Shown in pieces: positions 46,431 through 61,495 of a stretch of DNA of 64,000 nt (within the stretch, counting starts at the first letter, position 1; each line of letters begins with the position of its first letter). Below the pieces are notes generated by a model. The model did no database searches. It was not told where the DNA came from and saw nothing but the letters and a program-made list of their open reading frames with translations. Made by a program: the position numbers and the translations under genes. This DNA is from Tabrizicola piscis (GTDB lineage Bacteria > Pseudomonadota > Alphaproteobacteria > Rhodobacterales > Rhodobacteraceae), in the NCBI RefSeq assembly GCF_003940805.1, contig NZ_CP034328.1, positions 620,001 to 684,000 of the forward strand, given 5' to 3'.

Positions 46431-47381
46431 CTAGCGCCGCCAGACCACCGCGTTCTCATGCCGCTGGATCAACTGCTTCATCGCATCGAACGCCTCGACC
46501 ACGAAATCGGCGAAGGCGGCGGCGGCGGGGTTCTGGTCGCCCTCCTCCAGCCGCAGGATGCCAAGGTTGCGCTGCGGTTGGGGAATGTCGACCGGCAGGA
46601 CGGTGATGCGGCTTTGCTTGCGTTCCGCGAAGGCGACCGAAAAGGGCAGGACCGCAAGCGCATCGGTTTCCGCCAGATAGTTCATCAGGCTGAGAAGCGA
46701 GCCGCCGGAATAGCGGATATCCAGGTCGATCGACCCCAGCGAGGATCGGATGGCGAACAGGTCGGCCAGAAGCGGCGACCCCGGCAGCGGCGCGACCCAA
46801 GGGTAAAGCGCCAGTTCCCCCAGATCGAGGCGCTTGGTGCGGATCAGCGGATGGCCAGGGCGGCAGCAGACCACGTTGCGCGCGGCAAGGATCGGCTGGA
46901 ACCGCAGGCCCTTCGGTTCGCCCGAAAGGCCCAAGGGCACGATGCCAAGGTCAAGCTGGGCCGCACGCAGGCCAAGGCTGACTTCGGCAAGGTTGCCATA
47001 GCTTTGTTCCACCATGACATCGCTGTGTTTGTTCTGAAACTCGGCAATCATGCGGCTGATCATGGCGTCCATGAAGAAGGGCACGCCGCAGACACGGACC
47101 AGACCCCGGGTGCCGCGCAGCAGGCTTTGCACCGCCTCGGTCGCGCGGCGGCTTTCGATCAGGATGCGGCGGCCATGGGTGGCAAGCTGGATGCCAAGCT
47201 GGGTGGCCTGCAAGGGCCGCTGGCCGCGAATGAACAGGGGCTTGCCCACCCGCGCCTCAAGCTGGGCCAGCGAACGCGAGACGGCGGGTTGCGCCAGACC
47301 CAGCGCCTCGGCCCCTTTGCTGACGCTGCCGGCATCGACGACAGCGGCAAGCTGGATGAGGTGGGTTTCGTTCAGCTTCAT
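46431..47381 (-). CDS. LysR family transcriptional regulator
   Basis: A 316-residue LysR protein. The N-terminal winged helix-turn-helix (about 1-65) includes GSVSKGAEALGLAQPAVSRS; the ligand-binding domain follows from about 90. It is divergent from the hydroxyquinol pathway genes (85 bases between starts), the classical place for a LysR activator of aromatic degradation, for example of the GbpR/PcaQ group. A strong promoter for its own transcription is visible at 47390-47418. Confidence 0.92.
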   Translation of the reverse strand: MKLNETHLIQLAAVVDAGSVSKGAEALGLAQPAVSRSLAQLEARVGKPLFIRGQRPLQATQLGIQLATHGRRILIESRRATEAVQSLLRGTRGLVRVCGVPFFMDAMISRMIAEFQNKHSDVMVEQSYGNLAEVSLGLRAAQLDLGIVPLGLSGEPKGLRFQPILAARNVVCCRPGHPLIRTKRLDLGELALYPWVAPLPGSPLLADLFAIRSSLGSIDLDIRYSGGSLLSLMNYLAETDALAVLPFSVAFAERKQSRITVLPVDIPQPQRNLGILRLEEGDQNPAAAAFADFVVEAFDAMKQLIQRHENAVVWRR

Positions 47382-47389
47382 AACAAAGT

Positions 47390-47418
47390 GGTATATTGAC
47401 TGACATGATACTTATCAA
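47390..47418 (-). promoter_or_regulatory. Promoter of the lysR gene
   Basis: TTGATA (47418-47413), 17 bases, then TATACC (47395-47390). The expected start near 47383 almost coincides with ATG 47381, so the mRNA may be leaderless. The GTAT/ATAC inverted half sites (47391-47394, 47408-47411) in the same place could be a LysR binding site affecting both directions. Confidence 0.55.
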
Positions 47419-47466
47419 CCACGGGGATCGGCGGCCCTAACCTCATCTCGGTGGGGGAGCACTACG

Positions 47467-48339
47467 ATGGACAGTCGGCCAGCCTTGGTTGGAGAGAACA
47501 GGATTGCCGCCGCGCTGCGCGCCCGGTTGCAGCAGTCCGGTCCTGACCGCCTGAGTCTGGCTGTGGGTCTCATCCTTGAACATGCCTTTGCCGTCCTGAA
47601 GGACCTCAAGCCAAGCGAAGCCGAGTTCGAGCAGCTTTTGCAGTTCCTCACCGATGTGGGCTATGCGACCGATGCGCGCCGGCAGGAATGGGTGTTGCTG
47701 GCGGATGTGTTCGGCTTTTCCGATCATGTCGCGGGCTGCAGCGCCGGGCGGGACCCGACCGCGACGCCGTCGACGCTGCCCGGACCCTTCTTTCGCCCCG
47801 ATGCGCCGCGCCTGGAAAGCGGCGCAAACCTTTGTCGCGACGGGGTGGGCGCCCCGCTGGCCGTGCGCGGACGGGTCACGTCAACCGATGGACAGCCGAT
47901 CTGTGGCGCCGAAGTTGACGTATGGCATGCCAACGGCAAGGGCCGGTACGAAAACCAGGACCCTGACAGCCAGCCCGAACATAACCTGCGTGGCCGGTTC
48001 GTGACCGACGCCAATGGCGGCTTTGCCTTCCGGACCGTGCGGCCCGGCGGGTATTCCTTGCCGGACGATGGCCCGGTGGGGCGGCTGGCGCAGCGGTTGG
48101 GCCTGTCGCTGGACCGCCCGGCGCATCTGCATTTCGCGGTGACCGCCCAGGGTCATCAACGCCTGGTCACCGCCATTTTCGACGGCAGCGACAGCGCCAT
48201 CGACCGCGATGCCTTGTCGGCGGTCAAGCCCGCGCTGATCGGCACCTTCAAACCCGAGGCCTTTGGCCATTCCCTTGACGTGGCGCTGGTCCTTCTTCCC
48301 GACGCCACGCCCCAGCCCAATGATCTGCAGAAAGGATGA
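47467..48339 (+). CDS. Intradiol ring-cleavage dioxygenase (hydroxyquinol 1,2-dioxygenase-like), first copy
   Basis: A 290-residue non-haem iron(III) enzyme. The N-terminal helical dimerisation domain (about 20-95) precedes the beta-sandwich catalytic domain. Iron ligands are Tyr161, Tyr196, His220 and His222, at the same residue numbers as in the second copy at 57647. The signature LPGPFFRPDAP lies at 104-114. The overall pattern favours hydroxyquinol or catechol as substrate, giving maleylacetate or muconate. It is the first gene of the catabolic cluster and overlaps the next reading frame. Confidence 0.88.
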   Translation: MDSRPALVGENRIAAALRARLQQSGPDRLSLAVGLILEHAFAVLKDLKPSEAEFEQLLQFLTDVGYATDARRQEWVLLADVFGFSDHVAGCSAGRDPTATPSTLPGPFFRPDAPRLESGANLCRDGVGAPLAVRGRVTSTDGQPICGAEVDVWHANGKGRYENQDPDSQPEHNLRGRFVTDANGGFAFRTVRPGGYSLPDDGPVGRLAQRLGLSLDRPAHLHFAVTAQGHQRLVTAIFDGSDSAIDRDALSAVKPALIGTFKPEAFGHSLDVALVLLPDATPQPNDLQKG

Positions 48340-48344
48340 CAAAC

Positions 48345-49298
48345 ATGGCTCTTGTGTCCGGCTATCACCATCTGACGATGAGCACGCATGGCGTGCAGGA
48401 AGATTTCGACTTCTACACCAAGACGCTGGGCCTGCATTCGGTCAAGCGCACGGTGCTGTTTGACGGCACCCTGCCGGTCTATCACCTGTATTACGGGTCG
48501 CCCAACGGGGATGCCTCGACGATCATCACCACGTTCCCGTTCAAGAAGCCCGGCATCTACGGGCGACGTGGCAGCAACCAGACCCGCACGATCATGCAGG
48601 CGATCCCGATGGGGTCGGCCGAGTTCTGGCTGGACCGGCTGAACCGCATGGGCGTGCCTGCAACGAAGGGTGACCGCTTCGGCCTGACCCGGGTGATCTT
48701 CGCCCATCCCTGCGGCATCCCGCACGAGCTGGTCGAAAACCCCGGCGATACCCGCAAGCCCATCACCAACGCCGCGCAAGGCATTGGCGAGGCACATGGC
48801 ATCCGTGGCATCTTTGGCGGCACGGTCGCAGTGATGGACGCCACCGCGATGGAGGAGTTCCTTGACATCGGCATGCAGTTCCGGCGTGAGGCGACGGATG
48901 ACAACGGCAGCCTCTGGGTCGTGCCGGAAAACAACGGCCTTCATTCTGTGATCGAGCTTGTGGTCGACAAGGGCCCGCAGGGCACTTGGACGCTTGCGGG
49001 GGGGACGGTCCATCACCTGGCGTTCAACACCGGGACCGAGGACAACCAGATCGCGCTCAAGGCCCGGCTGGAGGGCATGGGCTATACCGATGTCAGCGAA
49101 CAGAAGGACCGCAACTACTTCAAGTCAATGTACATGCGGTCGCCGGGCGGCGCGCTGTTTGAGTTGGCCTGGACCGTACCGGAAGGCTGGGCCAAGGATG
49201 AACCGGCCGACGCCATTGGCAAGTCGTTGGTGTTCCCACCATGGTTCGAAGACCGCCGCGCCGAGATGGTCGCCGGGCTGGAGCCTGCGAACTTCTGA
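48345..49298 (+). CDS. VOC-type ring-cleaving dioxygenase (PcpA/LinE/MhqO-like)
   Basis: A 317-residue extradiol-type iron(II) enzyme resembling PcpA and LinE, which cleave (chloro)hydroquinone between a hydroxylated carbon and its neighbour. Likely iron ligands are one histidine of YHHL (8/9), one of VHH (223/224) and Glu273 in LFELAW. The VKRTVLFDGTLPVYHLYYG segment (33-51) strongly resembles PcpA. AAAGGA precedes ATG 48345; an ATG at 48336 overlapping the previous stop is also possible. It is translationally coupled to the esterase gene by TGATG, as in mhqO-mhqD of Bacillus. Confidence 0.87.
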   Translation: MALVSGYHHLTMSTHGVQEDFDFYTKTLGLHSVKRTVLFDGTLPVYHLYYGSPNGDASTIITTFPFKKPGIYGRRGSNQTRTIMQAIPMGSAEFWLDRLNRMGVPATKGDRFGLTRVIFAHPCGIPHELVENPGDTRKPITNAAQGIGEAHGIRGIFGGTVAVMDATAMEEFLDIGMQFRREATDDNGSLWVVPENNGLHSVIELVVDKGPQGTWTLAGGTVHHLAFNTGTEDNQIALKARLEGMGYTDVSEQKDRNYFKSMYMRSPGGALFELAWTVPEGWAKDEPADAIGKSLVFPPWFEDRRAEMVAGLEPANF

Positions 49299-49957
49299 TG
49301 CCGGGCATCGTCGACATCCAGCGCCTTGGCGCAACGGCGGACCGGGCAAGGGTGCTGTGCATCCTTGTCCACGGTCGCAACCAGTCGCCCGAGGCGATGG
49401 AGGCTGCCGTGCTGCGCCACCTGACCACGCCGGATGTGGCTTTTGCCCTGCCTCGGGCGGGCGACAAATGCTGGTATCATGCGCTGGCGATCACTCCGCT
49501 GACTGCCGAGACGAGGGCCGAACTTGGCGCTTCGCTGGCTGACCTTGCTGCGCTGGTGCAGGCCCTGCGGGCCGAGGCCCCAGGTGTGCCCCTGGTCCTG
49601 GCAGGCTTTAGCCAGGGCGCTTGCCTGTCATTGGAATATGCCTTCACCGGCGTTGATCTTCCCGATGCCATGGTCGCATTGACCGGCTGCCGGGTTGGGG
49701 TGGTGGGCGACGACCGCCCTGCCCGGCTGCCCCATGGCCTGCCGGTCTATCTGACAGCGGGGCGCGAGGATCCGTGGATCCCCCTGCCCGCCTTTGCCGA
49801 AGTTGCGCTTGAACTGGGCCTTGGTGGCGCGGCCCTGCGGATGGACGTGTTCCCTAACCGCCCACACGAAGTCTCTGCCCCAGAGATCGCCATGCTGGAC
49901 GGCATTTTGGCCGACCTTGCAGCAGGTCATCCCCCCAGCTTCGGAGGCACTAGATGA
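49298..49957 (+). CDS. Phospholipase/carboxylesterase family alpha/beta hydrolase (MhqD/YpfH-like)
   Basis: A 219-residue serine hydrolase. The nucleophile Ser105 is in AGFSQGACL, with the later Asp in GREDPWIP and His in NRPHEVS completing the triad; HGRNQSPEAM (25-34) provides the oxyanion region. Members of this family accompany hydroquinone dioxygenases in quinone-resistance operons. TGATG coupling joins it to the dioxygenase, and it overlaps the maleylacetate reductase start by 4 bases. The substrate is uncertain. Confidence 0.85.
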   Translation: MPGIVDIQRLGATADRARVLCILVHGRNQSPEAMEAAVLRHLTTPDVAFALPRAGDKCWYHALAITPLTAETRAELGASLADLAALVQALRAEAPGVPLVLAGFSQGACLSLEYAFTGVDLPDAMVALTGCRVGVVGDDRPARLPHGLPVYLTAGREDPWIPLPAFAEVALELGLGGAALRMDVFPNRPHEVSAPEIAMLDGILADLAAGHPPSFGGTR

Positions 49958-51012
49958 CCCGCCCGTTCACCTTCCCCGGCCTAGCCACCCGCGTGGTCTT
50001 TGGCCATGGCACGCTGGCGCAGGTGCCCGAAGAGGTAGCTCGCTTTGGCCACAGCCGCGCGCTGGTCCTCTCCACACCCCAGCAAGAGCCGCAGGCGCAG
50101 GCCCTGGCCGATGCGTTGGGGGCGCGGTCGGCTGGGGTCTTTGCCGGGGCCACGATGCACACTCCGGTCGAGGTGACAGAACAGGCGGTGGCCGCTTATG
50201 CCTCGGCGGGCGCGGATTGCGTGGTCAGCTTGGGCGGCGGGTCGACCACCGGCCTAGGCAAGGCCATCGCCACCCGCACAGGGGCGGATCAGGTGGTCGT
50301 GCCCACCACCTATGCCGGGTCCGAGATGACGGATATTCTGGGCGAAACCGCAGGGGGTGAGAAGACCACCCGCCGCGATGCCAGCATCCGGCCCGAGGTG
50401 GTGGTCTATGATGTGGACCTTACCCTGACCCTGCCGGTGGGCCTGACTGTCACCTCAGCCCTGAACGCCATCGCCCATGCGATGGAGGGGTTCTATGCCC
50501 CAGACCGCCACCCGATCACCGAGGCGCTCAGCCGCGATGCGATGACGGCCTTTGCCCGGGCGCTTCCCGTGCTGGTGGGGAACCCGCAGGACCCGACCGC
50601 CCGGGCCGATGCGCTTTATGCCGCCTGGGGCTGTTCCACGACCCTTGGCCATGTGACCATGGCGCTGCACCACAAGCTGGCGCATGTCCTTGGCGGCAGC
50701 TTCGGCCTGCCCCATGCCGAGACGCATGCCGTGCTTCTGCCCCACACCACCGCCTACAATGAAGCGGCGGTTGAGGGCCTGTTGAACCCGATCCGCGATG
50801 CCTTTGGCCATCCGACAGCCGCGGCTGGCCTTTGGCACCTCGCCAAGTCCTGCGGCGCTCCAACGCGGCTGGCCGACCTTGGCCTGACCGTCGCCGACCT
50901 TGACCGCGCGGCAGAGATTGCCGCGCGCAACCCCTATGCCAACCCGCGGCCCATCACCCGCGACGGCATCCGCCACCTGCTGCAACACGCCTTTGACGGG
51001 GATTGTCCCTAA
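49954..51012 (+). CDS. Maleylacetate reductase
   Basis: A 352-residue iron-containing-type alcohol dehydrogenase that reduces maleylacetate to 3-oxoadipate with NAD(P)H. The cofactor-binding motif GGGSTTGLGKA is at 94-104, and the conserved PTTYAGSEMTDILGET segment is characteristic of this enzyme rather than other group III dehydrogenases. HHKLAHVLGGSFGLPHAETH contains the histidines near the active site. It links both ring-opening routes to the central intermediate. Confidence 0.93.
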   Translation: MTRPFTFPGLATRVVFGHGTLAQVPEEVARFGHSRALVLSTPQQEPQAQALADALGARSAGVFAGATMHTPVEVTEQAVAAYASAGADCVVSLGGGSTTGLGKAIATRTGADQVVVPTTYAGSEMTDILGETAGGEKTTRRDASIRPEVVVYDVDLTLTLPVGLTVTSALNAIAHAMEGFYAPDRHPITEALSRDAMTAFARALPVLVGNPQDPTARADALYAAWGCSTTLGHVTMALHHKLAHVLGGSFGLPHAETHAVLLPHTTAYNEAAVEGLLNPIRDAFGHPTAAAGLWHLAKSCGAPTRLADLGLTVADLDRAAEIAARNPYANPRPITRDGIRHLLQHAFDGDCP

Positions 51013-51045
51013 GCCATCAGAACTGAAAAAAGGGAGGAATGACAG

Positions 51046-52320
51046 ATGATTACCAGACGCAAACTGCTCCGCTCCGGTGCGGCGACGGGCCTTGCCATGG
51101 CCACCCCCGGCCTGTTCGCCCCCGCTATCGCGCAAGGGGCCAAGATCCGCATCGGCTATGTCAGCCCCCAGTCCGGGCCGCTGGCGGGTTTTGCCGAAAG
51201 CGACAGCTACAACATCGAAAGTTTCCTTGCGACCGAGGTCGGCCAGAACTTTGAGGTCATCGTCAAGGACAGCCAGTCCGACCCGAACCGCGCCGCCGCC
51301 GTGGCCAAGGAACTGATCGTCGATGACGAGATCAACCTGATGATCGTCGCCTCGACCCCCGAAACCACCAACCCGGTAGCCACGACCTGTGAGGCCGAAG
51401 GGATGCCTGTCATCTCGACCAAGGCACCGTGGCAGCCGTGGTTTATCGGCCAGCAGGGCAACCCCGGCGACCCGGCAAGCTGGAAGCCTTTCGATTTCGC
51501 CTTCCACTACTTCTGGGGGCTGGAGGATGTGATTGCCGTCTTCCTGAACATGTGGAACCAGATTGAGACCAACAAGCAGGTCGGCGGGCTGTTCCCCAAT
51601 GACGGCGACGGCAATGCCTGGGGTGACCCGAACGTCGGCGTCGGCCCCGGCTTTGCGGCGCAGGGCTATACCCTCAACGATCCGGGGCGCTATCAGAACC
51701 TGAATGACGATTTCAGCGCCCAGATCAACGCCTTCAAGGCCGCGAACTGTGACATCGTCACCGGCGTCGTGATCCCGCCCGACTTCACCACCTTCCGCAA
51801 CCAAGCGCTGCAGCAGGGCTTCAACCCCAAGATCATCACCGTGGCCAAGGCCATCCTCTTCCCGCAGTCGGTCGAGGCGTTGGGTGAGGCGGGGCACAAC
51901 CTGTCCTCCGAAGTGTGGTGGAGCCCGTCGCACCCGTTCAAATCCTCGCTGACCGGGCAGTCGGCAGCGGAGCTTGCGGCGGATTACACCGCCAAGGCGG
52001 GGCGGCCCTGGACCCAGCCGATCGGCTTTGTCCATTCGCTGCTTGAGGTGGCGTCGAACGTCATGGGCCGGGTGTCGGACGTGACCGATGCCGAAGGCGT
52101 GGCTGCGGCGATTGCCGCCACCGACATGGACACGATGGTCGGCAAGGTCGCCTGGAACGGCGCGGGCGTGCCGCCTTTTGCCGCAACCAACGTCTGCAAG
52201 ACCCCGCTGGTCGGGGGCCAGTGGCGGCGCAAGGAGGACGGGACCTTCGACCTTGTCATCGTCGACAACCAGACCGCGCCGGACATCCCGACCGGAGGCA
52301 CGATGGAGGCGCTGGCCTGA
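51046..52320 (+). CDS. Branched-chain amino acid-type ABC substrate-binding protein
   Basis: A 424-residue periplasmic binding protein with a twin-arginine-like signal (TRRKLLRSG; cleavage near AIAQ/GA at about 30). The mature part (IRIGYVSPQSGPLAGF, VKDSQSDPNRAAAVAKELI) matches the Leu/Ile/Val-type family often used for aromatic acids and phenolic compounds. It begins 33 bases after the reductase, after AGGGAGGAATG. The location in a phenol-degradation cluster suggests that an aromatic compound is the ligand. Confidence 0.93.
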   Translation: MITRRKLLRSGAATGLAMATPGLFAPAIAQGAKIRIGYVSPQSGPLAGFAESDSYNIESFLATEVGQNFEVIVKDSQSDPNRAAAVAKELIVDDEINLMIVASTPETTNPVATTCEAEGMPVISTKAPWQPWFIGQQGNPGDPASWKPFDFAFHYFWGLEDVIAVFLNMWNQIETNKQVGGLFPNDGDGNAWGDPNVGVGPGFAAQGYTLNDPGRYQNLNDDFSAQINAFKAANCDIVTGVVIPPDFTTFRNQALQQGFNPKIITVAKAILFPQSVEALGEAGHNLSSEVWWSPSHPFKSSLTGQSAAELAADYTAKAGRPWTQPIGFVHSLLEVASNVMGRVSDVTDAEGVAAAIAATDMDTMVGKVAWNGAGVPPFAATNVCKTPLVGGQWRRKEDGTFDLVIVDNQTAPDIPTGGTMEALA

Positions 52321-52343
52321 TCGCCAGCCAAGGAAAACAACGC

Positions 52344-52364
52344 GCCCCGGGCTTGACCCGGGGC
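52344..52364. repeat. GCCCCGGGCTTGACCCGGGGC hairpin
   Basis: Eight-base arms around CTTGA between the binding-protein gene and livG. The core is shared with 39320-39334. It could reduce read-through and so set the ratio of binding protein to other subunits. Confidence 0.7.
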
Positions 52365-52384
52365 CTCCACCAAGGACTGGGCCA

Positions 52385-53104
52385 GTGACTGTCCTCGAAC
52401 TCACCAATGTCTCGAAAAGCTTCGGCGCCCTCAAGGTGACCGATGACGTCAGCTTTGCCGTGCCAAAGGGGCAGGCGTTGGGGATCATCGGGCCGAACGG
52501 GGCCGGGAAATCCACGCTCTTCAACCTGATCACCGGCAATTATCTGGCGGATGCGGGAACGGTCACCTTTCTTGGGCAGGATGTGACCCGGGTGCCCGCC
52601 ATGACGCGGGTGCGCATGGGGGTGGGGCGCAGTTTCCAGATCCCGCAGCCTTTCGAGGGGCTGACGGTGTTCGAAAACCTGCTGACCGCCGCCGCCTTCG
52701 GTCAGGGCAAGCGCGAGGCCGAGGTTGAGGCGGGTTGTGCCGCGATCCTGCGGGACACCGAGCTTCTTCGCCGCGCCAACGATCTGGCGGGGTCGCTGTC
52801 GCTTCTGGACCGCAAGCGGCTTGAAATGGCGCGGGCAATGGCGACGGGGCCGGAACTTCTCCTCCTCGACGAGATCGCCGGGGGGCTGACCGAGGGCGAA
52901 TGTCAGGCGCTGGTCGCCACGATCAAGGCGCTGCATACCAAGGGCACCACGATCATCTGGATCGAGCATGTGCTGCATGCGCTGACGTCCGTGGTGGAGC
53001 GTCTGCTTGTGCTGGATTTCGGCAAGGTGATCGGCATCGGCGCACCGGCCGAGATCATGGCCTCGCGTCAGGTGCAGGAAATCTATCTGGGGCTGGAGGT
53101 TTAG
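52385..53104 (+). CDS. livG: ABC transporter ATPase, LivG-like
   Basis: A 239-residue ATPase starting at GTG 52385 after AAGGA. Walker A is GPNGAGKST (36-44) and Walker B LLLLDE. The signature region reads SLSLLDRKRLEMARAM, where LSLLD replaces the usual LSxGQ, a variant seen in some LivG paralogues. The C-terminal EIMASRQVQEIYLG is typical of LivG. It is followed after 3 bases by livF. Confidence 0.92.
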   Translation: MTVLELTNVSKSFGALKVTDDVSFAVPKGQALGIIGPNGAGKSTLFNLITGNYLADAGTVTFLGQDVTRVPAMTRVRMGVGRSFQIPQPFEGLTVFENLLTAAAFGQGKREAEVEAGCAAILRDTELLRRANDLAGSLSLLDRKRLEMARAMATGPELLLLDEIAGGLTEGECQALVATIKALHTKGTTIIWIEHVLHALTSVVERLLVLDFGKVIGIGAPAEIMASRQVQEIYLGLEV

Positions 53105-53107
53105 CGG

Positions 53108-53809
53108 ATGCTGGAGACCCATGGCCTGACCGCGTCCTACGGCCAGTTCAAGGCCCTGTTCGGGATCGACATCACAGTCGCCCCCGGGGAATGCGTGGCG
53201 ATCATCGGGGCGAACGGGGCGGGCAAGACCACACTGCTGAGGTCGATCAGCGGCGTGCTGCGCAACGCGCCGGACATGGTGCTGCACAAGGGCACGCCCA
53301 TCGGCGCGCTGGCGGCAGACGCCGTCCTGCAACGCGGGATCGCCATGGTGCCAGAGGGGCGGAAGCTGTTCCCCTCACTCTCGGTAGAGGAAAACCTGCT
53401 GATCGGCGGGCAGGTGCGGCGGGGCGACGGGCGCTGGACGCTGGAAACCGTCTACGCCCTGTTCCCGATCCTGAAGGAACGCCGCCTGTCGCCCGCCACG
53501 GCCCTGTCCGGCGGGCAGCAACAGATGGTCGCCATCGGCCGCGCGCTGATGTCGAACCCCGAGCTTCTGCTGTGCGACGAGATCAGCCTTGGCCTTGCCC
53601 CTGTAGTCATCCGCGACATCTACGCCGCCCTGCCCCGCATCCGCGAAACCGGGGCGGCTATGGTGATCGTCGAACAAGACATCACCCGCGCTTTGGCCGT
53701 GGCCGACCGCGTCTACTGCCTGATGGAGGGTCGCGTCACCCTGACCGGCGCCACCACCAGCATCACGCGCGAGGCCGTCCACGCCGCCTATTTCGGAGAC
53801 GCTGCATGA
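53108..53809 (+). CDS. livF: ABC transporter ATPase, LivF-like
   Basis: A 233-residue ATPase. Walker A is GANGAGKTT, the signature LSGGQQQMVAIGRAL and Walker B LLCDE are intact, and the ending VHAAYFGD is typical of LivF. It forms the second nucleotide-binding subunit of the five-part importer. Confidence 0.93.
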   Translation: MLETHGLTASYGQFKALFGIDITVAPGECVAIIGANGAGKTTLLRSISGVLRNAPDMVLHKGTPIGALAADAVLQRGIAMVPEGRKLFPSLSVEENLLIGGQVRRGDGRWTLETVYALFPILKERRLSPATALSGGQQQMVAIGRALMSNPELLLCDEISLGLAPVVIRDIYAALPRIRETGAAMVIVEQDITRALAVADRVYCLMEGRVTLTGATTSITREAVHAAYFGDAA

Positions 53810-53830
53810 CCCGTACCCTGCGCCAAGTGG

Positions 53831-53931
53831 CCCTCCACCCCCATCCCCTCCCCACAAGTGGGAGGGCTGGCGACCAGTGCTGCCATGTTGCGCCGCCCTC
53901 TCCCCCTCGTGGGGGAGGGATGGGGTGGCGG
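53831..53931. repeat. C/G-rich nested hairpins between livF and livH
   Basis: Two local hairpins (CTCCCCACAAGTGGGAG at about 53848 and TCCCCC-TCGT-GGGGGA at about 53901) are enclosed in a longer pairing of CCACCCCCATCCC with GGGATGGGGTGG. The same type of hairpin occurs at 21301-21350. It interrupts an otherwise tight operon. Confidence 0.75.
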
Positions 53932-53960
53932 GGCACCACGCACCATCAAGGGACAAGCGC

Positions 53961-54824
53961 ATGATCTGGCTTGATACCATCGTGCAGGGGCTGCTGCTGG
54001 GTGGGCTTTACGCCCTCTTTGCCGCAGGCCTCAGCCTTGTGTTCGGGATCATGCGGCTGGTGAACCTTGCGCATGGCGATCTGATCGTGCTGGCGGCCTT
54101 CATCGTGCTGGTGGTGGTCGAGGCGACGGGGCTGAACCCGTTCCTGTCGGCCCTGATCGCGGCCCCGGCCTTGTTCGCCTTTGGCTGGGCGCTGCAATGG
54201 TTCGTGCTGAACCGGGTGCTGGGCAAGGACATCCTTCCACCGCTCCTTGTCACTTTCGGTCTGTCCATCGCCTTACAGAACGGGATGCTGGAGGTGTTCT
54301 CGGCCGACAGCCAGCGCATCCGCGCAGGCGCGCTGGAAAGCGCCTCGGTCGATCTGGGGGTGGTCACGGTGGGGATCATGCCGCTGTTGACCTTCGCCTC
54401 GGCCGTTCTGGTGATCTTCGGGCTAAACCAGATCTTCTACCGCACCGCGCTTGGCCGGGCGTTCAGGGCCACGTCGGACGACCCGGTGACCGCCAGCCTG
54501 ATGGGCATCAACCCCCGGTCAGTCTTTGCGATGGCCACCGGGCTGGCCATGGTCATCGTCACCATCGCCGCCCTTTACCTTGGGATGCGGTCGAACTTTG
54601 ATCCCTCCATCGGCCCGGCCCGCCTGATCTTTGCCTTCGAGGCCGTGATCATTGGCGGACTTGGGTCGCTTTGGGGCACGCTTCTGGGCGGGGCGATCAT
54701 CGGGATCGCGCAGACGGTTGGCGCGCAGATCAACCCGGAATGGCAGATATTGGCAGGGCATCTGGCGTTTCTCGTCGTGCTTCTGGTGCGGCCAAGGGGC
54801 CTGTTCCCCCGGGCGGTGGACTGA
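53961..54824 (+). CDS. livH: ABC transporter permease, LivH-like
   Basis: A 287-residue permease with about eight hydrophobic segments. VQGLLLGGLYALFAAGLSLVFG at the start, MRLVNLAHGDL and the late GGLGSLWGTLLGG are family landmarks. ATG 53961 is chosen because the frame upstream is repeat DNA. Its stop overlaps livM (TGATG). Confidence 0.93.
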   Translation: MIWLDTIVQGLLLGGLYALFAAGLSLVFGIMRLVNLAHGDLIVLAAFIVLVVVEATGLNPFLSALIAAPALFAFGWALQWFVLNRVLGKDILPPLLVTFGLSIALQNGMLEVFSADSQRIRAGALESASVDLGVVTVGIMPLLTFASAVLVIFGLNQIFYRTALGRAFRATSDDPVTASLMGINPRSVFAMATGLAMVIVTIAALYLGMRSNFDPSIGPARLIFAFEAVIIGGLGSLWGTLLGGAIIGIAQTVGAQINPEWQILAGHLAFLVVLLVRPRGLFPRAVD

Positions 54825-55891
54825 TGGACCATCCCATGCAGATCACCGTCACCACCCGCACCCGCGCCAGCACTGTTGCCGGATTTGTGGCGCTGGGATT
54901 GATCGGGCTAGGGCTGGTCTTGCCCGCCTTCGCCTCGCGCAGTCTGATCCAGGACCTGTTCTTCATCCTGACGATGCTGACCCTTGCGCAGCTTTGGAAC
55001 CTGATCGCGGGCTATGGCGGGATGGTCAGCGTCGGCCAGCAGGCCTTTGTCGGTATCGGCGCCTATGCGATGTTCGCGGGCGTCATCCTCTGGGGCTGGG
55101 ACCCGGTTCCGGCGATCCTGCTGGGCGGGGCCGCGGCCTTCCTTCTTGCCATCCCCATGGCCTTCTTCGCCTTCCGCCTGCAGGGCGCCTATTTCGCCAT
55201 CGGCACTTGGGTGATTGCCGAGGTGACCCGTCTGGTCATCGCCCAATGGAAGACCCTTGGCGGCGGCACCGGCACCAGCCTGCCGCGTGAGGCGACATCA
55301 GACATCATCGGTGTCGCCACGATTGCCGAGGTCTTTGGCCTGCGCGATGCTGCCGCCCGCGATGTGCTGGCCTACTGGCTGGCGCTGGCGCTGGCGGTGG
55401 GAACGATGGCCGCGATCTATGCGCTTTTGCGGTCGCGCAACGGCCTTGCGCTTACGGCGCTGCGCGACAATGACAATGCCGCCCGGTCAGTGGGGGTGGA
55501 TGCCGGGCGGCTGAAATGGCTGGTGTTTCTTACCGCCGCCGCGATGACCGGCCTTGTCGGTGCGCTGATCTACATGCAGACCGCCCGCATTTCGCCCGAC
55601 GCCGCTTTCAGCGTCACCAGCTGGACCGCCTATGTCATCTTCATCGTGGTCATCGGCGGCATCGGCCGGCTGGAAGGGCCGATTGTCGGCGTCCTTGTCT
55701 TCTGGGGGCTGCAGACCGCCTTTGCCGATTACGGCAGCTGGTATCTTCTGGCCCTTGGTCTTCTGGCCATTGTCACGATGCTTTTCGCCCCGCGCGGGCT
55801 TTGGGGCCTGATCGCCGATCGTACCGGCCTTGCCCTGTTTCCGATCCAGCGCCGGCTGACCCTGACCTCTGAAGGAGCCTCCAATGCCTGA
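54824..55891 (+). CDS. livM: ABC transporter permease, LivM-like
   Basis: A 355-residue permease with about ten hydrophobic segments and the usual LivM motifs: GYGGMVSVGQQAFVGIGAY and the late GGIGRLEGPIVG. It overlaps livH by one base and the flavin hydroxylase by 8 bases, tying the transporter to the catabolic enzymes. Confidence 0.93.
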   Translation: MDHPMQITVTTRTRASTVAGFVALGLIGLGLVLPAFASRSLIQDLFFILTMLTLAQLWNLIAGYGGMVSVGQQAFVGIGAYAMFAGVILWGWDPVPAILLGGAAAFLLAIPMAFFAFRLQGAYFAIGTWVIAEVTRLVIAQWKTLGGGTGTSLPREATSDIIGVATIAEVFGLRDAAARDVLAYWLALALAVGTMAAIYALLRSRNGLALTALRDNDNAARSVGVDAGRLKWLVFLTAAAMTGLVGALIYMQTARISPDAAFSVTSWTAYVIFIVVIGGIGRLEGPIVGVLVFWGLQTAFADYGSWYLLALGLLAIVTMLFAPRGLWGLIADRTGLALFPIQRRLTLTSEGASNA

Positions 55892-57638
55892 TATCACCAC
55901 CGACGTCCTTATCATTGGCACCGGCCCCGCCGGGTCGGCCACCGCAGCCCTTCTGGCCTCATACGGGGTCGATGTGCTGGTGGTGAACCGCTACCGCTGG
56001 CTTGCCCACACGCCGCGCGCCCATATCACCAACCAGCGCACGATGGAGGTGCTGCGCGACCTTGGCCCCGAGGTCGAGGCCGAGGCCTACATGCACGCCG
56101 CCGATCAGGACCTGATGGGGGAAAACGTGTTCTGCGAAAGTCTTGCCGGGGAAGAACTTGGCCGGATGAAAAGCTGGGGCAACCACCCGCTGTCCCGCGC
56201 CGAACACCTGATGTCCTCGCCCAGCCGGATGAACGACCTGCCCCAGACCTTCATGGAGCCGATCCTGTTCAAGACCGCGTGCTCACGCGGCGCGCAAAGC
56301 CGGATGAGCACGGAATACCTGTCCCATGTGCAGGATGCGGATGGCGTGACCACCACCTGCCGCGACCGGCTGACGGGCAAGGATGTGGTGATCCGGTCTA
56401 AGTTCCTTGTCGGTGCCGATGGCGGCAACAGCCTTGTGGCCGAACATTGCGGCTTGCCGTTTGAAGGCAAGATGGGCGTCGGCGGGTCGATGAACATCCT
56501 CTTCCGGGCCGACCTGTCGCGCTATGTCGCGCATCGCCCGTCGGTCCTGTACTGGGTCATGCAGCCCGGCGCGGATGTGGGCGGCATCGGCATGGGGCTG
56601 GTCCGCATGGTCCGGCCGTGGAACGAATGGCTGATCGTCTGGGGCTATGACATCAACCAGCCCGCCCCGGTGGTGGATGCCGCGATGGCCACGCAGGTCG
56701 CGCGCCAGCTGGTCGGCGACCCGGAGCTTGAGATCGAGCTGATCAGCGCCAACACCTGGACGGTGAACAACCAATACGCCACCCACATGCAGCAGGGCCG
56801 CGTCTTCATCATGGGTGACGCCGCGCACCGGCATCCGCCGTCGAATGGCCTTGGGTCCAACACCTCGATCCAGGACGGGTTCAACCTGGCTTGGAAGCTG
56901 GCGGCGGTGGTCAAGGGCCATGCAGCCCCTGCCTTGCTTGACAGCTACTCCCCCGAACGCGCACCCATTGCCAAGCAGATCGTCACCCGCGCCAACCAGT
57001 CCATCGGCGAATTTGGCCCGATCTTCGAAGCGCTGGGGATGGACGGCGGCGTCGACCACCAGAAGATCCAGGCCAGCATGGCCGCCCGTTGCGACGCGAC
57101 CGAGGCGGGGGCTGCGCAACGCGAAGCCCTGCGCAAGGCGATCGAATTCAAGAAATATGAATTCGACTGCCACGGGGTCGAGATGAACCAGCGCTACACC
57201 TCCACCGCCGCAGTCACCGATGGCCAGCCCCAGCCCGCCCCGAACGCGGATATGGAGCTGCACTACCAGCCCACCACCTGGCCCGGCGCGCGGCTGCCGC
57301 ATGTCTGGGTCTTCAGCGCTGATGGCAAGCAGCACTCCACGCTCGACCTGTGCGGTCGGGGGCAATTCACCCTCTTGACCGGCATCGGTGGCGAGGCTTG
57401 GGTGGCGGCAGCCAAGGCCGAAGCGGCCAAGCGCGGCATGCCGATCCGCACCCATGTGATCGGCCCACGTCAGGCGATTGCCGACCATACCGGCGACTGG
57501 GCCCGCGCCTCGGAAATCGCTGACAATGGCTGCCTTCTGGTGCGCCCCGACCACCACGTCGCCTGGCGCAGCGCGACCCTGACCCTAGACCCCGCCGCCG
57601 ACCTTGCGCGGGTCCTGACCTCCATCCTTGGCAAGTGA
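55884..57638 (+). CDS. FAD-dependent phenol/resorcinol-type monooxygenase (TfdB-like)
   Basis: A 584-residue class A flavoprotein monooxygenase. The FAD motif GTGPAG is at 12-17 and GDAAHRHPP at 311-319 binds the FAD phosphate and ribityl; NGLGSNTSIQDGFNLAWKLA follows. A thioredoxin-like C-terminal domain (about 465-584) is the usual third domain of phenol hydroxylases. The overall pattern resembles 2,4-dichlorophenol 6-monooxygenase and resorcinol hydroxylases. Beside hydroxyquinol dioxygenase, it most likely hydroxylates a dihydroxybenzene such as resorcinol to hydroxyquinol, using NAD(P)H. Confidence 0.88.
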   Translation: MPDITTDVLIIGTGPAGSATAALLASYGVDVLVVNRYRWLAHTPRAHITNQRTMEVLRDLGPEVEAEAYMHAADQDLMGENVFCESLAGEELGRMKSWGNHPLSRAEHLMSSPSRMNDLPQTFMEPILFKTACSRGAQSRMSTEYLSHVQDADGVTTTCRDRLTGKDVVIRSKFLVGADGGNSLVAEHCGLPFEGKMGVGGSMNILFRADLSRYVAHRPSVLYWVMQPGADVGGIGMGLVRMVRPWNEWLIVWGYDINQPAPVVDAAMATQVARQLVGDPELEIELISANTWTVNNQYATHMQQGRVFIMGDAAHRHPPSNGLGSNTSIQDGFNLAWKLAAVVKGHAAPALLDSYSPERAPIAKQIVTRANQSIGEFGPIFEALGMDGGVDHQKIQASMAARCDATEAGAAQREALRKAIEFKKYEFDCHGVEMNQRYTSTAAVTDGQPQPAPNADMELHYQPTTWPGARLPHVWVFSADGKQHSTLDLCGRGQFTLLTGIGGEAWVAAAKAEAAKRGMPIRTHVIGPRQAIADHTGDWARASEIADNGCLLVRPDHHVAWRSATLTLDPAADLARVLTSILGK

Positions 57639-57646
57639 GACCGAAC

Positions 57647-58522
57647 ATGACCACCGAAAGCGGATACTTCACCGAAGCCACCTCGGCCGCAGTCGTCACC
57701 GCCCGCAACGCAGGCGCGCAGGACGAACGCCTGAAACAGGTGATGGAGGTCATCACCCGCAAGCTGCACGAGGCGGTGAAAGAGATTGAGCCGACCGAAG
57801 CGGAATGGTTCCGCGCCATCATGTTCCTGACCGACACCGGCCACATGTGCAACGAATGGCGGCAAGAGTTCATCCTGTTGTCGGACGTCCTTGGCGTGTC
57901 GATGCTGGTCGATGCGATCAACAACCGCAAACCCTCTGGCGCGTCGGAAAGCACGGTCCTTGGACCCTTCCACGTCGCCGATGCGCCGGAATTGCCGATG
58001 GGGGCGGACATCTGCCTTGACCAGAAGGGTGATCCGATGCTGGTCCGTGGACGCATTCTGGACACCCATGGCAACCCGATTGCCGGGGCCAAGATCGACG
58101 TCTGGCAGGCCAATGACGAAGGCTTCTACGACGTCCAACAAAAGGGCCTGCAGCCCGATTTCAACCTGCGCGGCGTGTTCCGCACCGGGCCGGATGGCAG
58201 CTATCACTTCCGGGGCGTGAAGCCGAAATTCTACCCGATCCCGGACGATGGCCCGGTCGGCAAGCTGCTGGGTGCGCTTGGCCGCCACCCCTTCCGCCCC
58301 GCGCATCTGCACTTCATCATCGAAGCGCCCGGCTATGCGCGGCTGGTCACCCACATCTTCGACCCCGATGATCCCTACATCCACTCGGACGCGGTGTTCG
58401 GCGTGAAGGAAAGCCTGATGGCCGAGTTCACCCCCGTCTCCGACCCCGCGAAAGCCAAGGCTGCAGGCTTTGACGGGCCGTACTTCGACACCGAGTTCGA
58501 TTTCGTCCTGGCCCCCGCGTGA
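57647..58522 (+). CDS. Hydroxyquinol 1,2-dioxygenase, second copy
   Basis: A 291-residue intradiol dioxygenase converting hydroxyquinol to maleylacetate. Iron ligands are Tyr161, Tyr196, His220 and His222. The helical N-terminal domain with LTDTGHMCNEWRQEFILLSD and the VLGPFHVADAPELPMGADI segment match characterised hydroxyquinol dioxygenases more closely than the first copy does. A GTG at 57635 overlapping the previous stop is an alternative start. It lies directly after the flavin hydroxylase whose product it would use. Confidence 0.92.
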   Translation: MTTESGYFTEATSAAVVTARNAGAQDERLKQVMEVITRKLHEAVKEIEPTEAEWFRAIMFLTDTGHMCNEWRQEFILLSDVLGVSMLVDAINNRKPSGASESTVLGPFHVADAPELPMGADICLDQKGDPMLVRGRILDTHGNPIAGAKIDVWQANDEGFYDVQQKGLQPDFNLRGVFRTGPDGSYHFRGVKPKFYPIPDDGPVGKLLGALGRHPFRPAHLHFIIEAPGYARLVTHIFDPDDPYIHSDAVFGVKESLMAEFTPVSDPAKAKAAGFDGPYFDTEFDFVLAPA

Positions 58523-58524
58523 CC

Positions 58525-59349
58525 ATGAAACCCTGCATCATCTGCGTCGCCATCACCGGCTCATTGCCGCGCAAGGCGCACAACCCGGCCGTGCCGATCA
58601 CCATTGCCGAACAGGTGGAAAGCACCCATGCGGCATTCGAGGCGGGGGCCTCCATCGCCCATTGCCATGTCCGCAACGATGATGAGACCCCCTCCTCCGA
58701 CCCCGAGAAATTCGCCCAGCTGCTGGAGGGGTTGCGGAAGCATTGCCCCGGGCTGATCGTCCAGTTCTCCACCGGAGGGAGGTCGGGCGCGGGGCGGGAA
58801 CGCGGCGGGATGCTGCCGCTTCGGCCCGACATGGCATCGCTGACGGTGGGATCGAACAACTTTCCGACCCGGGTCTATGAAAACCCGCCCGATCTGGTGG
58901 ACTGGCTGGCAAGCGAGATGCTGGCCTACAACATCAAGCCCGAGATCGAGGCCTTCGATCTTGGTCATATTCACCAAGCCGCAGCCATGGCGCGGGATGG
59001 GCGGCTGCGCGGCCCGCTTTATGTGCAGTTCGTGATGGGCGTGAAGAACGCGATGCCCGCCGACCGCGACGTGTTCGACTACTACATCCGCACGGTGAAC
59101 CGTCTTCTGCCGGATGCCGAATGGTGCGCCGCCGGGATCGGGCCGCATCAGATCGAGCTGAATGAATGGTGCGTCGCCGCCGGGGGCCATGCCCGCACCG
59201 GGCTGGAGGATAACCTGCGGCTGGACCGCACGACCCTCGCCCCGTCGAACGCGGCACTGGTGCAGCGCGTGGTGGACCTCTGCCACCGCTACGACCGCAA
59301 GGTCGCCACCCCGGCCGAGGCGCGGGCGATCCTGGGCCTGGCCAGCTAG
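58525..59349 (+). CDS. Beta-keto acid cleavage enzyme (BKACE; 3-keto-5-aminohexanoate cleavage family)
   Basis: A 274-residue zinc-dependent TIM-barrel enzyme that exchanges acyl groups between a beta-keto acid and acetyl-CoA, giving acetoacetate and a CoA ester. Zinc ligands His46 and His48 lie in IAHCHVR; Glu228 in ARTGLEDN is the expected third ligand, and QFSTGG and VGSNNFP are family landmarks. In this cluster the natural substrate may be 3-oxoadipate, giving succinyl-CoA and acetoacetate. The stop shares CTAG with the convergent oxidoreductase gene. Confidence 0.9.
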   Translation: MKPCIICVAITGSLPRKAHNPAVPITIAEQVESTHAAFEAGASIAHCHVRNDDETPSSDPEKFAQLLEGLRKHCPGLIVQFSTGGRSGAGRERGGMLPLRPDMASLTVGSNNFPTRVYENPPDLVDWLASEMLAYNIKPEIEAFDLGHIHQAAAMARDGRLRGPLYVQFVMGVKNAMPADRDVFDYYIRTVNRLLPDAEWCAAGIGPHQIELNEWCVAAGGHARTGLEDNLRLDRTTLAPSNAALVQRVVDLCHRYDRKVATPAEARAILGLAS

Positions 59350-60278
59350 GCCCGCGCCAGAACATCCTCGGCGATGGCAGTGCCGCTGGTCCATGCGGCC
59401 TCGACCCGCGGGCCGATGCACCAGTCGCCGCCAAGGTACAGCGTGCCATCCGCGCTGCGCAGGAAGTTCTGGCCAAGGGCTTGGGTCACCCGGGCGTAGC
59501 GCCAGCGGTGCGCGGCGGCATGTGCAACCATTTCCGGCGCGGCCCCCAGCCGGTCGCACAACAAGGGCAGCATCAGGGCGGCGATCTGGGTCGGGTCCTT
59601 CTCCAGATGTTCGACGCTGAAGGCTTCACCTGCCTGCGCGACCCAGGCGGTGACTGCGCCGGACGGGCGGCCCGGTTTGCTGCTGTCCTGCGCGATCCAG
59701 GACAAAGGATCATCAGGGTCCTTTCGGGTGACAAAGGGCGCGGGGCCCGCGATGCCGGCCATCAGCGTCAGGCATGGGGCAAGGCGCACCCCGGCGAGCG
59801 GCGCGACCAGCGGATGATCTGCGCCCAGCAGGCCTGCCACCTGCGGGGCAGGAATCGTGATGACCACGCGGGCGGCGGCAAGGTCGGCGTCGCCCACGCG
59901 CAACTGCCACCCCCCTGCCACCGTCAGCACCCGCGACACGAGGGCGTTCTGCCGCACGTCAAGCCCCGCGCCCAAAGCCTTGGCCAGCGCCGACATGCCG
60001 GGGGTCCCTACGCTGTGGCTGCGCCCCGTGCCATCTGCCCAAGGCGCGACCGCCCCTTGGGCAGCAAGGTCGCGCAGCAGGGCGGCAAAGCCGTCCTCCC
60101 GTGCCGTCACATATTGCGCCCCGTGATCGAACTGCATCCCCTCGGCCCGCCGCGTGGCGACACGCCCGCCGATGCCGCGCCCCTTGTCGAGGACTAGGGT
60201 CGGCACCCCGGCCTGCGTCAGCCTGCGGGCACAGGCCAGCCCGGCGATCCCGGCACCGATCACCACAACCGGGGTCAT
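59346..60278 (-). CDS. NAD(P)/FAD-dependent oxidoreductase, renalase-like
   Basis: A 310-residue flavoprotein. The N-terminal Rossmann motif VVVIGAGIAGLACARRL and GRGIGGRVATRR are typical of renalase-like amine-oxidase-fold proteins; GGDWCIGPRVEAAWTSG near the C-terminus closes the FAD site. It overlaps the photolyase-like gene stop (ATGA), so the two are cotranscribed. Renalase-like enzymes oxidise wrong isomers of NAD(P)H; whether this one does is unknown. Confidence 0.85.
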   Translation of the reverse strand: MTPVVVIGAGIAGLACARRLTQAGVPTLVLDKGRGIGGRVATRRAEGMQFDHGAQYVTAREDGFAALLRDLAAQGAVAPWADGTGRSHSVGTPGMSALAKALGAGLDVRQNALVSRVLTVAGGWQLRVGDADLAAARVVITIPAPQVAGLLGADHPLVAPLAGVRLAPCLTLMAGIAGPAPFVTRKDPDDPLSWIAQDSSKPGRPSGAVTAWVAQAGEAFSVEHLEKDPTQIAALMLPLLCDRLGAAPEMVAHAAAHRWRYARVTQALGQNFLRSADGTLYLGGDWCIGPRVEAAWTSGTAIAEDVLARA

Positions 60279-61495
60279 GCCGCTACCAGCCGCGCAAGGA
60301 TCTGCGGGATCTGCTGCTTGACCTTGAAGAACCCGGCCGAGGCATGGGGCCAGATCGTGCTGTCCCACTCACGCCGCCATTCGGCCAGCACGATCCCCTT
60401 CGCGGCCAGATATGGCGTGGCCTCGTCCATCCAGTCCATCAGGGGCCCTTTCGTGATGTAAGGCGTGGCAATCTGGCTGGCCCCGACGGAAGCCGCCCAT
60501 TTGGCCAGCCCATCGGGGTGATCGGCCCGCAGGTTGATCGGCGTCAATCCAGCCCGCGCGGCAGTGTCGGCCAGCGCCCCGGCCTCAAACGTGGCCACTG
60601 CAGCGGCCACTGGCAAGGGCGACCGCAAATGGCTTGCGGCAAGCGTGGCGGTCGCGACGATGTTCAGCCCGGCAAGATCGAAATCCTCGATGCAGCAATC
60701 CTCATCCGTCAGCAGAAGTGCGGTCGGCCGCCCCGGTTCCGGCGCGCGTGGGCTGCGGATCGGTTGCAAGGACGGCAGACCGTCGGGTTCGGTCGCCTCC
60801 AGCCCTTGGGTCACCTCAACCAGATCGGTCTCGCGCGGCGTGAAGCGCTGGCCGGTGAAGGTGGCAATGTTCCAGGCCTGCGCATGATAGGGCTTGCCCC
60901 GCGTGTGCAGCCCCGCAACCCAGCGCCAGCCAAGCGTGTTCGACGCGGCATCGCCGTCCAAAAGGTGGCGATAGAAGAAATCCGCCCCCAGCCGCCACGG
61001 CAGCCCCAGCGTGAAGATCCAGATCGAGGCGAACCACATCCGCGCGTGATTGTGCAGATAGCCGGTCTCCACCAGCTCTTCCGCCCATGCGTCCATGCAG
61101 GCAAGCCCGGTCTGGCCATCCATCGCGCGCTCGACATCGCGGCGCAGGCGGCGGTCACGGTCAAGGGCAGCAAGGTCAGCCTCCAACCCCTGACGGTAAC
61201 TGGCCCAGACCTGCGGTCGGCGTTCCAGCCAGCCCTTGAAGTAGCTGCGCCAGATCACCTCTTGCACGAACTTTTCGGACGCCTCGGGGCCATGGGCGGC
61301 AAGGGCAGCGGTCACCACCTCAGCCTCGGTCACCAGACGGCGGCGGATATAAGGCGACAGCACCGACACCGCCTTATGCTGGCCCGGCCCCCGGTCGTAG
61401 TTGCGCCCGTTGGCATAGCGCCACCCCATCGCGGGCACGAAAGCCTCCATTCGGGACAGGGCCTCGGTTCGGATCGCAATGAAGGTGGGGGGCAT
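60275..61495 (-). CDS. Photolyase/cryptochrome-type FAD-binding protein with reversed domain order
   Basis: A 406-residue protein. The helical FAD-binding domain of photolyases is at the N-terminus (about 20-220), shown by FVQEVIWRSYFKGW, GYLHNHARMWFAS (145-157) and the LDGDAASNTLGWRW motif (179-192). An alpha/beta domain of about 170 residues follows (235-406), with TALLLTDEDCC, HLRSPLPVAA and the ATPYITKGPL segment. In normal photolyases the alpha/beta antenna domain is first. AGAGGA precedes ATG 61495. It probably binds FAD; repair or photoreceptor function is open. Confidence 0.82.
   Translation of the reverse strand: MPPTFIAIRTEALSRMEAFVPAMGWRYANGRNYDRGPGQHKAVSVLSPYIRRRLVTEAEVVTAALAAHGPEASEKFVQEVIWRSYFKGWLERRPQVWASYRQGLEADLAALDRDRRLRRDVERAMDGQTGLACMDAWAEELVETGYLHNHARMWFASIWIFTLGLPWRLGADFFYRHLLDGDAASNTLGWRWVAGLHTRGKPYHAQAWNIATFTGQRFTPRETDLVEVTQGLEATEPDGLPSLQPIRSPRAPEPGRPTALLLTDEDCCIEDFDLAGLNIVATATLAASHLRSPLPVAAAVATFEAGALADTAARAGLTPINLRADHPDGLAKWAASVGASQIATPYITKGPLMDWMDEATPYLAAKGIVLAEWRREWDSTIWPHASAGFFKVKQQIPQILARLVAA

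Follow-up and report, generated by a model that had tools for sequence, protein, structure and literature searches.

We analysed a 64,000-nucleotide stretch of the Tabrizicola piscis genome (assembly GCF_003940805.1, contig NZ_CP034328.1, positions 620,001 to 684,000; hereafter the window), in which one divergent LysR gene and twelve co-directed plus-strand genes, together spanning 46431-59349, appear to encode a hydroxyquinol pathway ending in a beta-keto acid cleavage enzyme (BKACE). A preliminary description of this DNA had proposed such an ending, and the sequence comparisons made here support it: the protein passed the 3-oxoadipate model NF053568, its near relatives lie beside protocatechuate or hydroxyquinol genes, and BKACE and PcaIJF replace one another in protocatechuate operons of related genomes. 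On this evidence, BKACE very likely completes the hydroxyquinol pathway of the window.

Gene content and family membership were read directly from the sequences; every catalytic step and every substrate given below is predicted. We consider the whole proposed route, from import through hydroxylation, ring opening and reduction to the BKACE ending, to be probable. A Liv-type ATP-binding cassette (ABC) system would import a phenolic compound, probably resorcinol or a substituted resorcinol, which an HbpA-like flavoprotein would hydroxylate to a hydroxyquinol. The second of two intradiol dioxygenases (dioxygenase 2) would then open the ring to give maleylacetate, a maleylacetate reductase would form 3-oxoadipate, and BKACE would convert 3-oxoadipate and acetyl-coenzyme A (acetyl-CoA) to succinyl-CoA and acetoacetate in one step, replacing PcaIJ and PcaF. 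Activation of acetoacetate must draw on enzymes from outside the operon: ScoAB, encoded elsewhere, would activate it and a housekeeping thiolase would split the product. A PcpA-like dioxygenase and a hydrolase may supply this maleylacetate pool through a side branch from hydroquinone. The textbook beta-ketoadipate ending takes three genes, to which BKACE is a one-gene shortcut. The BKACE, ScoAB and thiolase reactions would sum to the same conversion as PcaIJ and PcaF (3-oxoadipate + CoA -> succinate + acetyl-CoA), and would differ in passing through free succinyl-CoA and acetoacetate and in needing a single dedicated gene.

The BKACE protein and its operon

The BKACE exceeded both the gathering score of Pfam PF05853 (322.5 versus 24.8 bits) and the cut-off of NCBIfam NF053568, a curated equivalog for 3-oxoadipate:acetyl-CoA acetyltransferase (497.7 versus 350 bits); judged by these models, the window enzyme is a further member of the known BKACE family. 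Residues H46, H48 and E228 were invariant in 87/87 relatives and align with those of Kce, where we take the equivalents to be the zinc ligands of the TIM barrel (His, His, Glu). E140 and E142 were also invariant; the catalytic glutamate of BKACE15, a protein outside our alignment, is E171 (PMC11961710; here and below, papers are cited for the portions of their text that were accessible). Position 14, where the glutamate of Kce binds the 5-amino group of its substrate (PMC10470551), is Val in 54 and Leu in 33 of the 87 relatives, and Leu in the window protein. Arg116 and Arg232 were invariant in 87/87 relatives, the corresponding residues being Asp/Phe in Kce and Tyr/Trp in a second BKACE of the same genome, located in a carnitine cluster. 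The Leu/Val at position 14 and the two invariant arginines are consistent with an acidic substrate tail, as would be expected of a substrate carrying another carboxylate. The closest solved relatives were 3fa5, 3chv and 3no5, all with titles that name no function; 3FA5 and 3CHV are among the DUF849 templates of PMC4922564, in which beta-ketoadipate is a substrate class of group G3 (the beta-ketoadipate group is G4 as cited in PMC8963497).

The features of the locus are as follows.

46431..47381, minus strand: LysR-type regulator (Pfam HTH_1 and LysR_substrate), divergent from the operon
47467..48339, plus strand: intradiol ring-cleavage dioxygenase 1 (PF00775/PF04444)
48345..49298, plus strand: PcpA/MhqO-type ring-cleaving dioxygenase, hydroquinone type (4huz PcpA, 3oaj MhqO)
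49298..49957, plus strand: small alpha/beta hydrolase of the phospholipase/carboxylesterase type (PF02230, 4h0c)
49954..51012, plus strand: maleylacetate reductase (3hl0, 3w5s)
51046..52320, plus strand: ABC importer periplasmic binding protein (PF13458)
52385..53104, plus strand: ABC importer ATPase 1, LivG type (PF00005 and BCA_ABC_TP_C on frame 52088-53101; start at GTG 52385)
53108..53809, plus strand: ABC importer ATPase 2, LivF type (open frame; loci L123 and L124 have at this position annotated ABC ATP-binding proteins that align with it)
53827..53936, no strand: palindromic dispersed repeat (35-nt arms, 77% complementary)
53961..54824, plus strand: ABC importer permease, LivH type (PF02653; UrtB/LivH models under cut-off)
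54824..55891, plus strand: ABC importer permease, LivM type (PF02653; LivM model under cut-off)
55884..57638, plus strand: HbpA-like flavin aromatic hydroxylase (PF01494, 363 bits)
57647..58522, plus strand: intradiol dioxygenase 2, hydroxyquinol 1,2-dioxygenase type (8r2x, 3n9t PnpC, 1tmx)
58525..59349, plus strand: BKACE, predicted 3-oxoadipate:acetyl-CoA acetyltransferase (PF05853, NF053568)

The genes named in the preliminary description (LysR, both dioxygenases, reductase, importer, flavin hydroxylase and BKACE) are all open frames at the positions given there; its list had overlooked the PcpA/MhqO-type dioxygenase (48345-49298) and the hydrolase (49298-49957). Each operon frame has a single terminal stop, and 10 of the 11 gaps from one operon gene to the next fall within -8 to 64 bases. 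The 2-base spacing between dioxygenase 2 and BKACE is exact provided that ATG 58525 is the start, since the in-frame GTG 58519 would produce an overlap. The remaining gap, 151 bases at 53810-53960 within the five-gene Liv-type importer (51046-55891), is occupied by two palindromic elements in inverted orientation that resemble repetitive extragenic palindromes, with 63 matches in the genome including itself; two of these matches lie just after the carnitine-cluster BKACE (C1:2877394-2877513, C1 being a contig of this genome). A promoter and terminator scan gave no excess over shuffles. We infer a single transcript for the twelve genes. Convergent with BKACE, a minus-strand frame at 59346-60368 with Amino_oxidase and NAD_binding_8 matches overlaps its end by 4 bases.

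The assignments of the other enzymes rest on comparison with solved structures. Dioxygenase 2 scored 322 bits against 6-chlorohydroxyquinol dioxygenase (8r2x), 275 against PnpC (3n9t) and 271 against hydroxyquinol 1,2-dioxygenase (1tmx), versus 145 against the best catechol dioxygenase, and every NCBIfam catechol or chlorocatechol model remained under cut-off; it is thus the predicted hydroxyquinol 1,2-dioxygenase of a hydroxyquinol/maleylacetate pathway. The predicted maleylacetate reductase of that pathway matched two structures bearing this title (3hl0, 398 bits; 3w5s, 392 bits), with zero NCBIfam matches at E 1e-40. For dioxygenase 1 the best solved relative was again 8r2x (191 bits). The flavin hydroxylase, previously described as TfdB-like, is closer to HbpA (2-hydroxybiphenyl 3-monooxygenase, 4cy6, 610 bits) than to 2,4-dichlorophenol 6-monooxygenase (6u0p, 447 bits), and the name TfdB was rejected on these scores; none of the 25 NCBIfam models shown for it was over cut-off. 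The product of 48345-49298 scored 216 bits against PcpA (4huz) and 144 against MhqO (3oaj), with alignment of the His...His...Glu stretches that presumably hold the metal ligands, and this similarity makes a hydroquinone side branch feeding maleylacetate plausible. The hydrolase exceeded the PF02230 cut-off on the longer frame 49241-49954 (28.8 versus 23) and matched 4h0c at 72 bits. PcaQ was the top NCBIfam model for the LysR protein (46431-47381), at 109 bits, far under the cut-off of 303.8.

BKACE genes and their neighbours in related genomes

A scan of 84,980 species genomes confirmed at least 587 relatives of the window BKACE, the best 80 of which were examined for context. Neighbourhoods of about 10 kb, some of them shortened by contig ends, were classed as hydroxyquinol if they held a maleylacetate reductase or a dioxygenase 2 homologue of at least 45% identity, and otherwise as protocatechuate if they held any pca gene. 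By this rule 44 were protocatechuate, 9 hydroxyquinol and 27 neither; the protocatechuate and hydroxyquinol routes converge on 3-oxoadipate. Among representatives of recurrent neighbour clusters, PcaG, PcaH, PcaC, PcaD, PobA and PcaQ were over their cut-offs and PcaB was under its own. The nearest named relative, 95% identical in BKACE, belongs to a Rhodobacteraceae metagenome-assembled genome (L015; L and G numbers are our handles for loci and genomes).

The exchange between BKACE and PcaIJF in protocatechuate operons was observed directly. Genomes G013 and G054 have the order pcaC-pcaH-pcaG-pcaI-pcaJ-pcaF-pcaB and G034 the order pcaD-pcaC-pcaH-pcaG-BKACE-pcaB-scoA-scoB, so that the slot between pcaG and pcaB holds PcaIJF in two genomes and BKACE elsewhere (the PcaB matches in all three are weak, at 29-38% identity). 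G013 and G054 gave no match to the scoB family. BKACE also follows pcaG in Ruegeria pomeroyi DSS-3, and lies beside or near ScoAB in four loci (L119-L122) that were chosen because BKACE and scoB/ScoAB were close.

Hydroxyquinol gene sets occur with either ending or with neither. BKACE accompanies the set in the window and at L015, L032, L035 and L108, as well as at L016, L017, L022, L051, L065, L109 and L111, where the contig is shorter or the cluster smaller. A rearranged set with a CoA-transferase pair and PcaF is found in G110 (L127-L128), a genome without BKACE, and on Paracoccus versutus plasmid pTAV3, which also has a distant BKACE. Neither ending is in reach at L103-L107, L110, L112, L129-L136 or Rhizobium leguminosarum L123. 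At L127-L130 (G110 and G084), the genes for dioxygenase 1, the PcpA-like protein and the hydrolase stand together with those for a LysR regulator and a binding protein, separately from the dioxygenase 2 gene.

In a tree built by a quick method from 88 BKACE rows plus an outgroup, 34 of 86 inner branches were weak. The hydroxyquinol label needed 10 changes (gains or losses) on it, at least 6 of which well supported branches require. The tree does not support a single origin for the hydroxyquinol-linked copies. The label was still clustered (8/500 shuffles as low). The BKACE copies of L021, L023, L027, L054, L056 and L073 form a group (support 87) whose surroundings lack all of the dioxygenase genes searched for, and at L027, L054 and L073 BKACE has an acyl-CoA dehydrogenase-like gene close by; this group possibly acts on another substrate.

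To place the window within its family we surveyed 150 genomes, one per genus, using the same genomes in every search; the statistics ignore kinship. BKACE was over cut-off in 107/150 genomes (an under-cut-off match in G070 was dropped; a partial gene in G144 and one-stop matches in G047, G038 and G025 were kept), and the notion that BKACE is a rarity peculiar to the window cluster was rejected. The survey recovered pcaH in 94/150 genomes, the pcaJ/scoB family in 140/150 and the PcaJ type of the window genome in 5/150, where one of the matches has 40% identity and two stops. Co-occurrence was likewise observed directly: BKACE was present in 88/94 genomes with pcaH versus 19/56 without (Fisher p = 4.6e-15). 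The six genomes with pcaH and no BKACE have a cat-type PcaIJ (G013, G054) or more than one pcaJ/scoB copy (G029, G041, G071, G084), a state shared by 25/88 comparators (p = 0.0009); the second copy of G071 adjoins PcaF (L137). A scoB-family gene was found in 103/107 BKACE genomes versus 37/43 others (p = 0.03). Within 12 kb, 60 of the 121 BKACE genes were near pcaH and 11 near a dioxygenase-2-like gene, some of these only about 40% identical.

Alternative endings and substrates

The genome of the window (G000; 4.39 Mb, 5 contigs, 100% complete) also encodes the canonical machinery. The earlier statement that CoA-transferase and thiolase are lacking holds for the twelve operon genes, among which no PcaIJ/PcaF beta-ketoadipate ending was encountered; the genome has both, plus ScoAB. 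That description had held that a pcaIJ-type pair elsewhere, if required for growth on hydroxyquinol, would speak against the BKACE ending, and the presence of such a set is the half of this that we found. It lies in a second aromatic locus (C1:3110.7-3127.3 kb, exactly C1:3110653-3127297; L101, L095), and a genome-wide absence of PcaIJ/PcaF was accordingly rejected. There, CoA-transferase I and J, PcaF (673 versus 597 bits) and a second maleylacetate reductase form one run at C1:3123.3-3127.3 kb, adjoined by a pcaQ-like LysR gene (287.8 bits, under the cut-off of 303.8). A chlorocatechol dioxygenase marginally over cut-off (360.0 versus 359.25) lies about 12 kb from the run, and the locus further holds a Rieske protein, a FadL/TodX-type porin and a flavin hydroxylase 54% identical to that of the window. 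With this set and the ScoAB pair at C1:3233.6-3234.9 kb, the cell has at its disposal both the canonical ending and the downstream needs of the BKACE route. No pcaH match was found in G000, and its second BKACE gene, beside carnitine 3-dehydrogenase, scored 170 against NF053568, under cut-off.

Further genes of related type were seen in the same genome. A thiolase-family gene of the window (8122-9279, minus strand; 382 bits to the PcaF model, under cut-off), which lies 37 kb away from the operon, is a candidate for the acetoacetyl-CoA thiolase. Another hydroxyquinol-type dioxygenase, 56% identical to dioxygenase 2, is encoded at L102 8842-9855 (C1 ~858.8-859.9 kb), preceded by a Peripla_BP_4 binding protein and an ABC ATPase-like frame and followed by an ApbA/PanE-like gene.

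Several observations weigh against a BKACE ending. Proteins of the PcaI, PcaJ and PcaF types are encoded beside the second maleylacetate reductase of G000, so BKACE may be redundant. Of 22 survey dioxygenase genes whose products share at least 57% identity with dioxygenase 2, only 6 have BKACE within 12 kb, which slightly reduces our confidence. Closely similar operons without BKACE occur at L103-L106, L131, L133 and L123, and dioxygenase-reductase pairs without it at L107, L132, L134 and L135. In two Billgrantia loci (L070, L090), BKACE and PcaI, PcaJ and PcaF lie side by side in a pca cluster. The 27/80 relatives beside neither gene set (some on short contigs, and with contexts viewed through a few gene clusters) and the 50/121 survey BKACE genes near neither pcaH nor a dioxygenase-2-like gene make further substrates possible, and 4/107 BKACE genomes have no scoB-family match.

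It is accordingly conceivable, if unlikely, that the distant PcaIJ/PcaF set completes the hydroxyquinol route and that BKACE is redundant or minor, as the run of that set beside a maleylacetate reductase in the same genome and the 16/22 same-type operons without an adjacent BKACE would suggest. However, the pcaQ-like LysR gene beside that run and the chlorocatechol dioxygenase some 12 kb away suggest separate regulation, BKACE starts 2 bases after dioxygenase 2, and in the genomes of L103-L106 BKACE is present on another contig. The 22 dioxygenase genes come from 20 genomes, 14 of which have BKACE somewhere. Each of the six others has a cat-type PcaIJ or multiple pcaJ/scoB copies, a condition also seen in 7 of the 14. 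Since pcaH is missing in 3/5 genomes with adjacent BKACE versus 3/15 others, the operon may include a BKACE gene chiefly in genomes without a pca operon to provide it, which is a trend only.

We regard as improbable to a greater degree that BKACE cleaves a different beta-keto acid, such as a chlorinated or methylated 3-oxoadipate or a keto acid from the side chain of the imported phenol. The promiscuity of BKACE enzymes (PMC4922564) favours this, as do the nearest relatives of dioxygenase 2 (a chlorohydroxyquinol enzyme) and of the PcpA-like protein (a dichlorohydroquinone enzyme). Against it, the 3-oxoadipate model NF053568 was passed far over its cut-off, and near relatives lie in protocatechuate operons. 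The product of those operons is plain 3-oxoadipate. Finally, a chance gathering of separate aromatic genes, with BKACE unrelated to the preceding dioxygenase, is hardly credible: relatives near neither gene set and the few adjacent survey genes would allow it, but a dioxygenase-2 homologue at least 61% identical recurs near BKACE in 8 other loci of the best 80 relatives and in 4 other survey genomes, on several branches of the tree.

Significance and comparison with known systems

Judging by the survey, much of one bacterial family may rely on this single enzyme, and in more than one branch. We give about even odds to a broader view, in which BKACE with housekeeping ScoAB, rather than PcaIJ/PcaF, is the normal aromatic-ring ending of the family for any 3-oxoadipate branch, and the 'PcaIJ' of Roseovarius nubinhibens chiefly activates acetoacetate. 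In that species, loss of a 3-oxoacid CoA-transferase subunit abolished growth on 4-hydroxybenzoate. Inactivating either pcaF or a second thiolase alone left growth at the wild-type level; with both inactivated, the final density was lower (PMC12442348). The authors consider that other enzymes or routes can complement, and read the pattern as thiolases acting on 3-oxoadipyl-CoA (PMC12442348); the accessible main text of that paper contains neither DUF849 nor acetoacet-. A putative BKACE route, with the CoA-transferase acting on acetoacetate, would predict the same mutant pattern, and would explain the growth of the double mutant. Public plasmid records mostly label the BKACE gene '3-keto-5-aminohexanoate cleavage protein', which hides this predicted role; if the use of a single enzyme in the family is confirmed, genome-based calls of 'incomplete' aromatic pathways would need revision, and published roseobacter mutant phenotypes would gain a simple explanation.

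Within the BKACE/Kce family (PF05853), the window enzyme shares the His, His and Glu positions and exceeds the 3-oxoadipate model; it differs from Kce in having Leu for the amine-binding Glu14 (role in PMC10470551), and from both Kce and the other BKACE of its genome at Arg116 and Arg232. CsTAL, from anaerobic phloroglucinol degradation, is likewise a BKACE-family ending of a polyphenol pathway in which Glu14 of Kce is replaced, but is anaerobic and acts on 3,5-dioxohexanoate (PMC10470551). As to gene arrangement, the R. leguminosarum plasmid locus L123 has the same order of LysR, dioxygenase, maleylacetate reductase, ABC importer, flavin monooxygenase and intradiol dioxygenase, without the PcpA-like gene, hydrolase and BKACE. 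Plasmid pTAV3 (L124) shares the maleylacetate reductase, HbpA-like monooxygenase, intradiol dioxygenase and ABC importer in another order. On its opposite strand, some 3 to 6 kb past the monooxygenase, lie pcaF and a pair of 3-oxoacid CoA-transferase genes, and BKACE is on the same plasmid about 210 kb distant.

Among the matches listed in a search of open-licence literature, we found no publication on BKACE in the hydroxyquinol or resorcinol branch. The closest published parallels lie in its sister branches. In the pca operons of Methylobacterium, DUF849 replaces pcaIJ and pcaF (PMC8963497), and M. extorquens carrying pcaHGBL and kce grows (PMC12379598); as in the slot described above, BKACE lies between pcaG and pcaB at the end of a beta-ketoadipate route, but their branch is protocatechuate and that of the window hydroxyquinol/maleylacetate (PMC8963497, PMC12379598). 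In the catBCD-COG3246 cluster of Ralstonia eutropha H16, which serves the catechol branch, the COG3246 protein was proposed to cleave beta-ketoadipate and an association with protocatechuate dioxygenase was noted (PMC6449761), the word hydroxyquinol being absent from the accessible main text. A BKACE ending is thus published for catechol and protocatechuate, and the hydroxyquinol ending predicted here is a variant of that idea.

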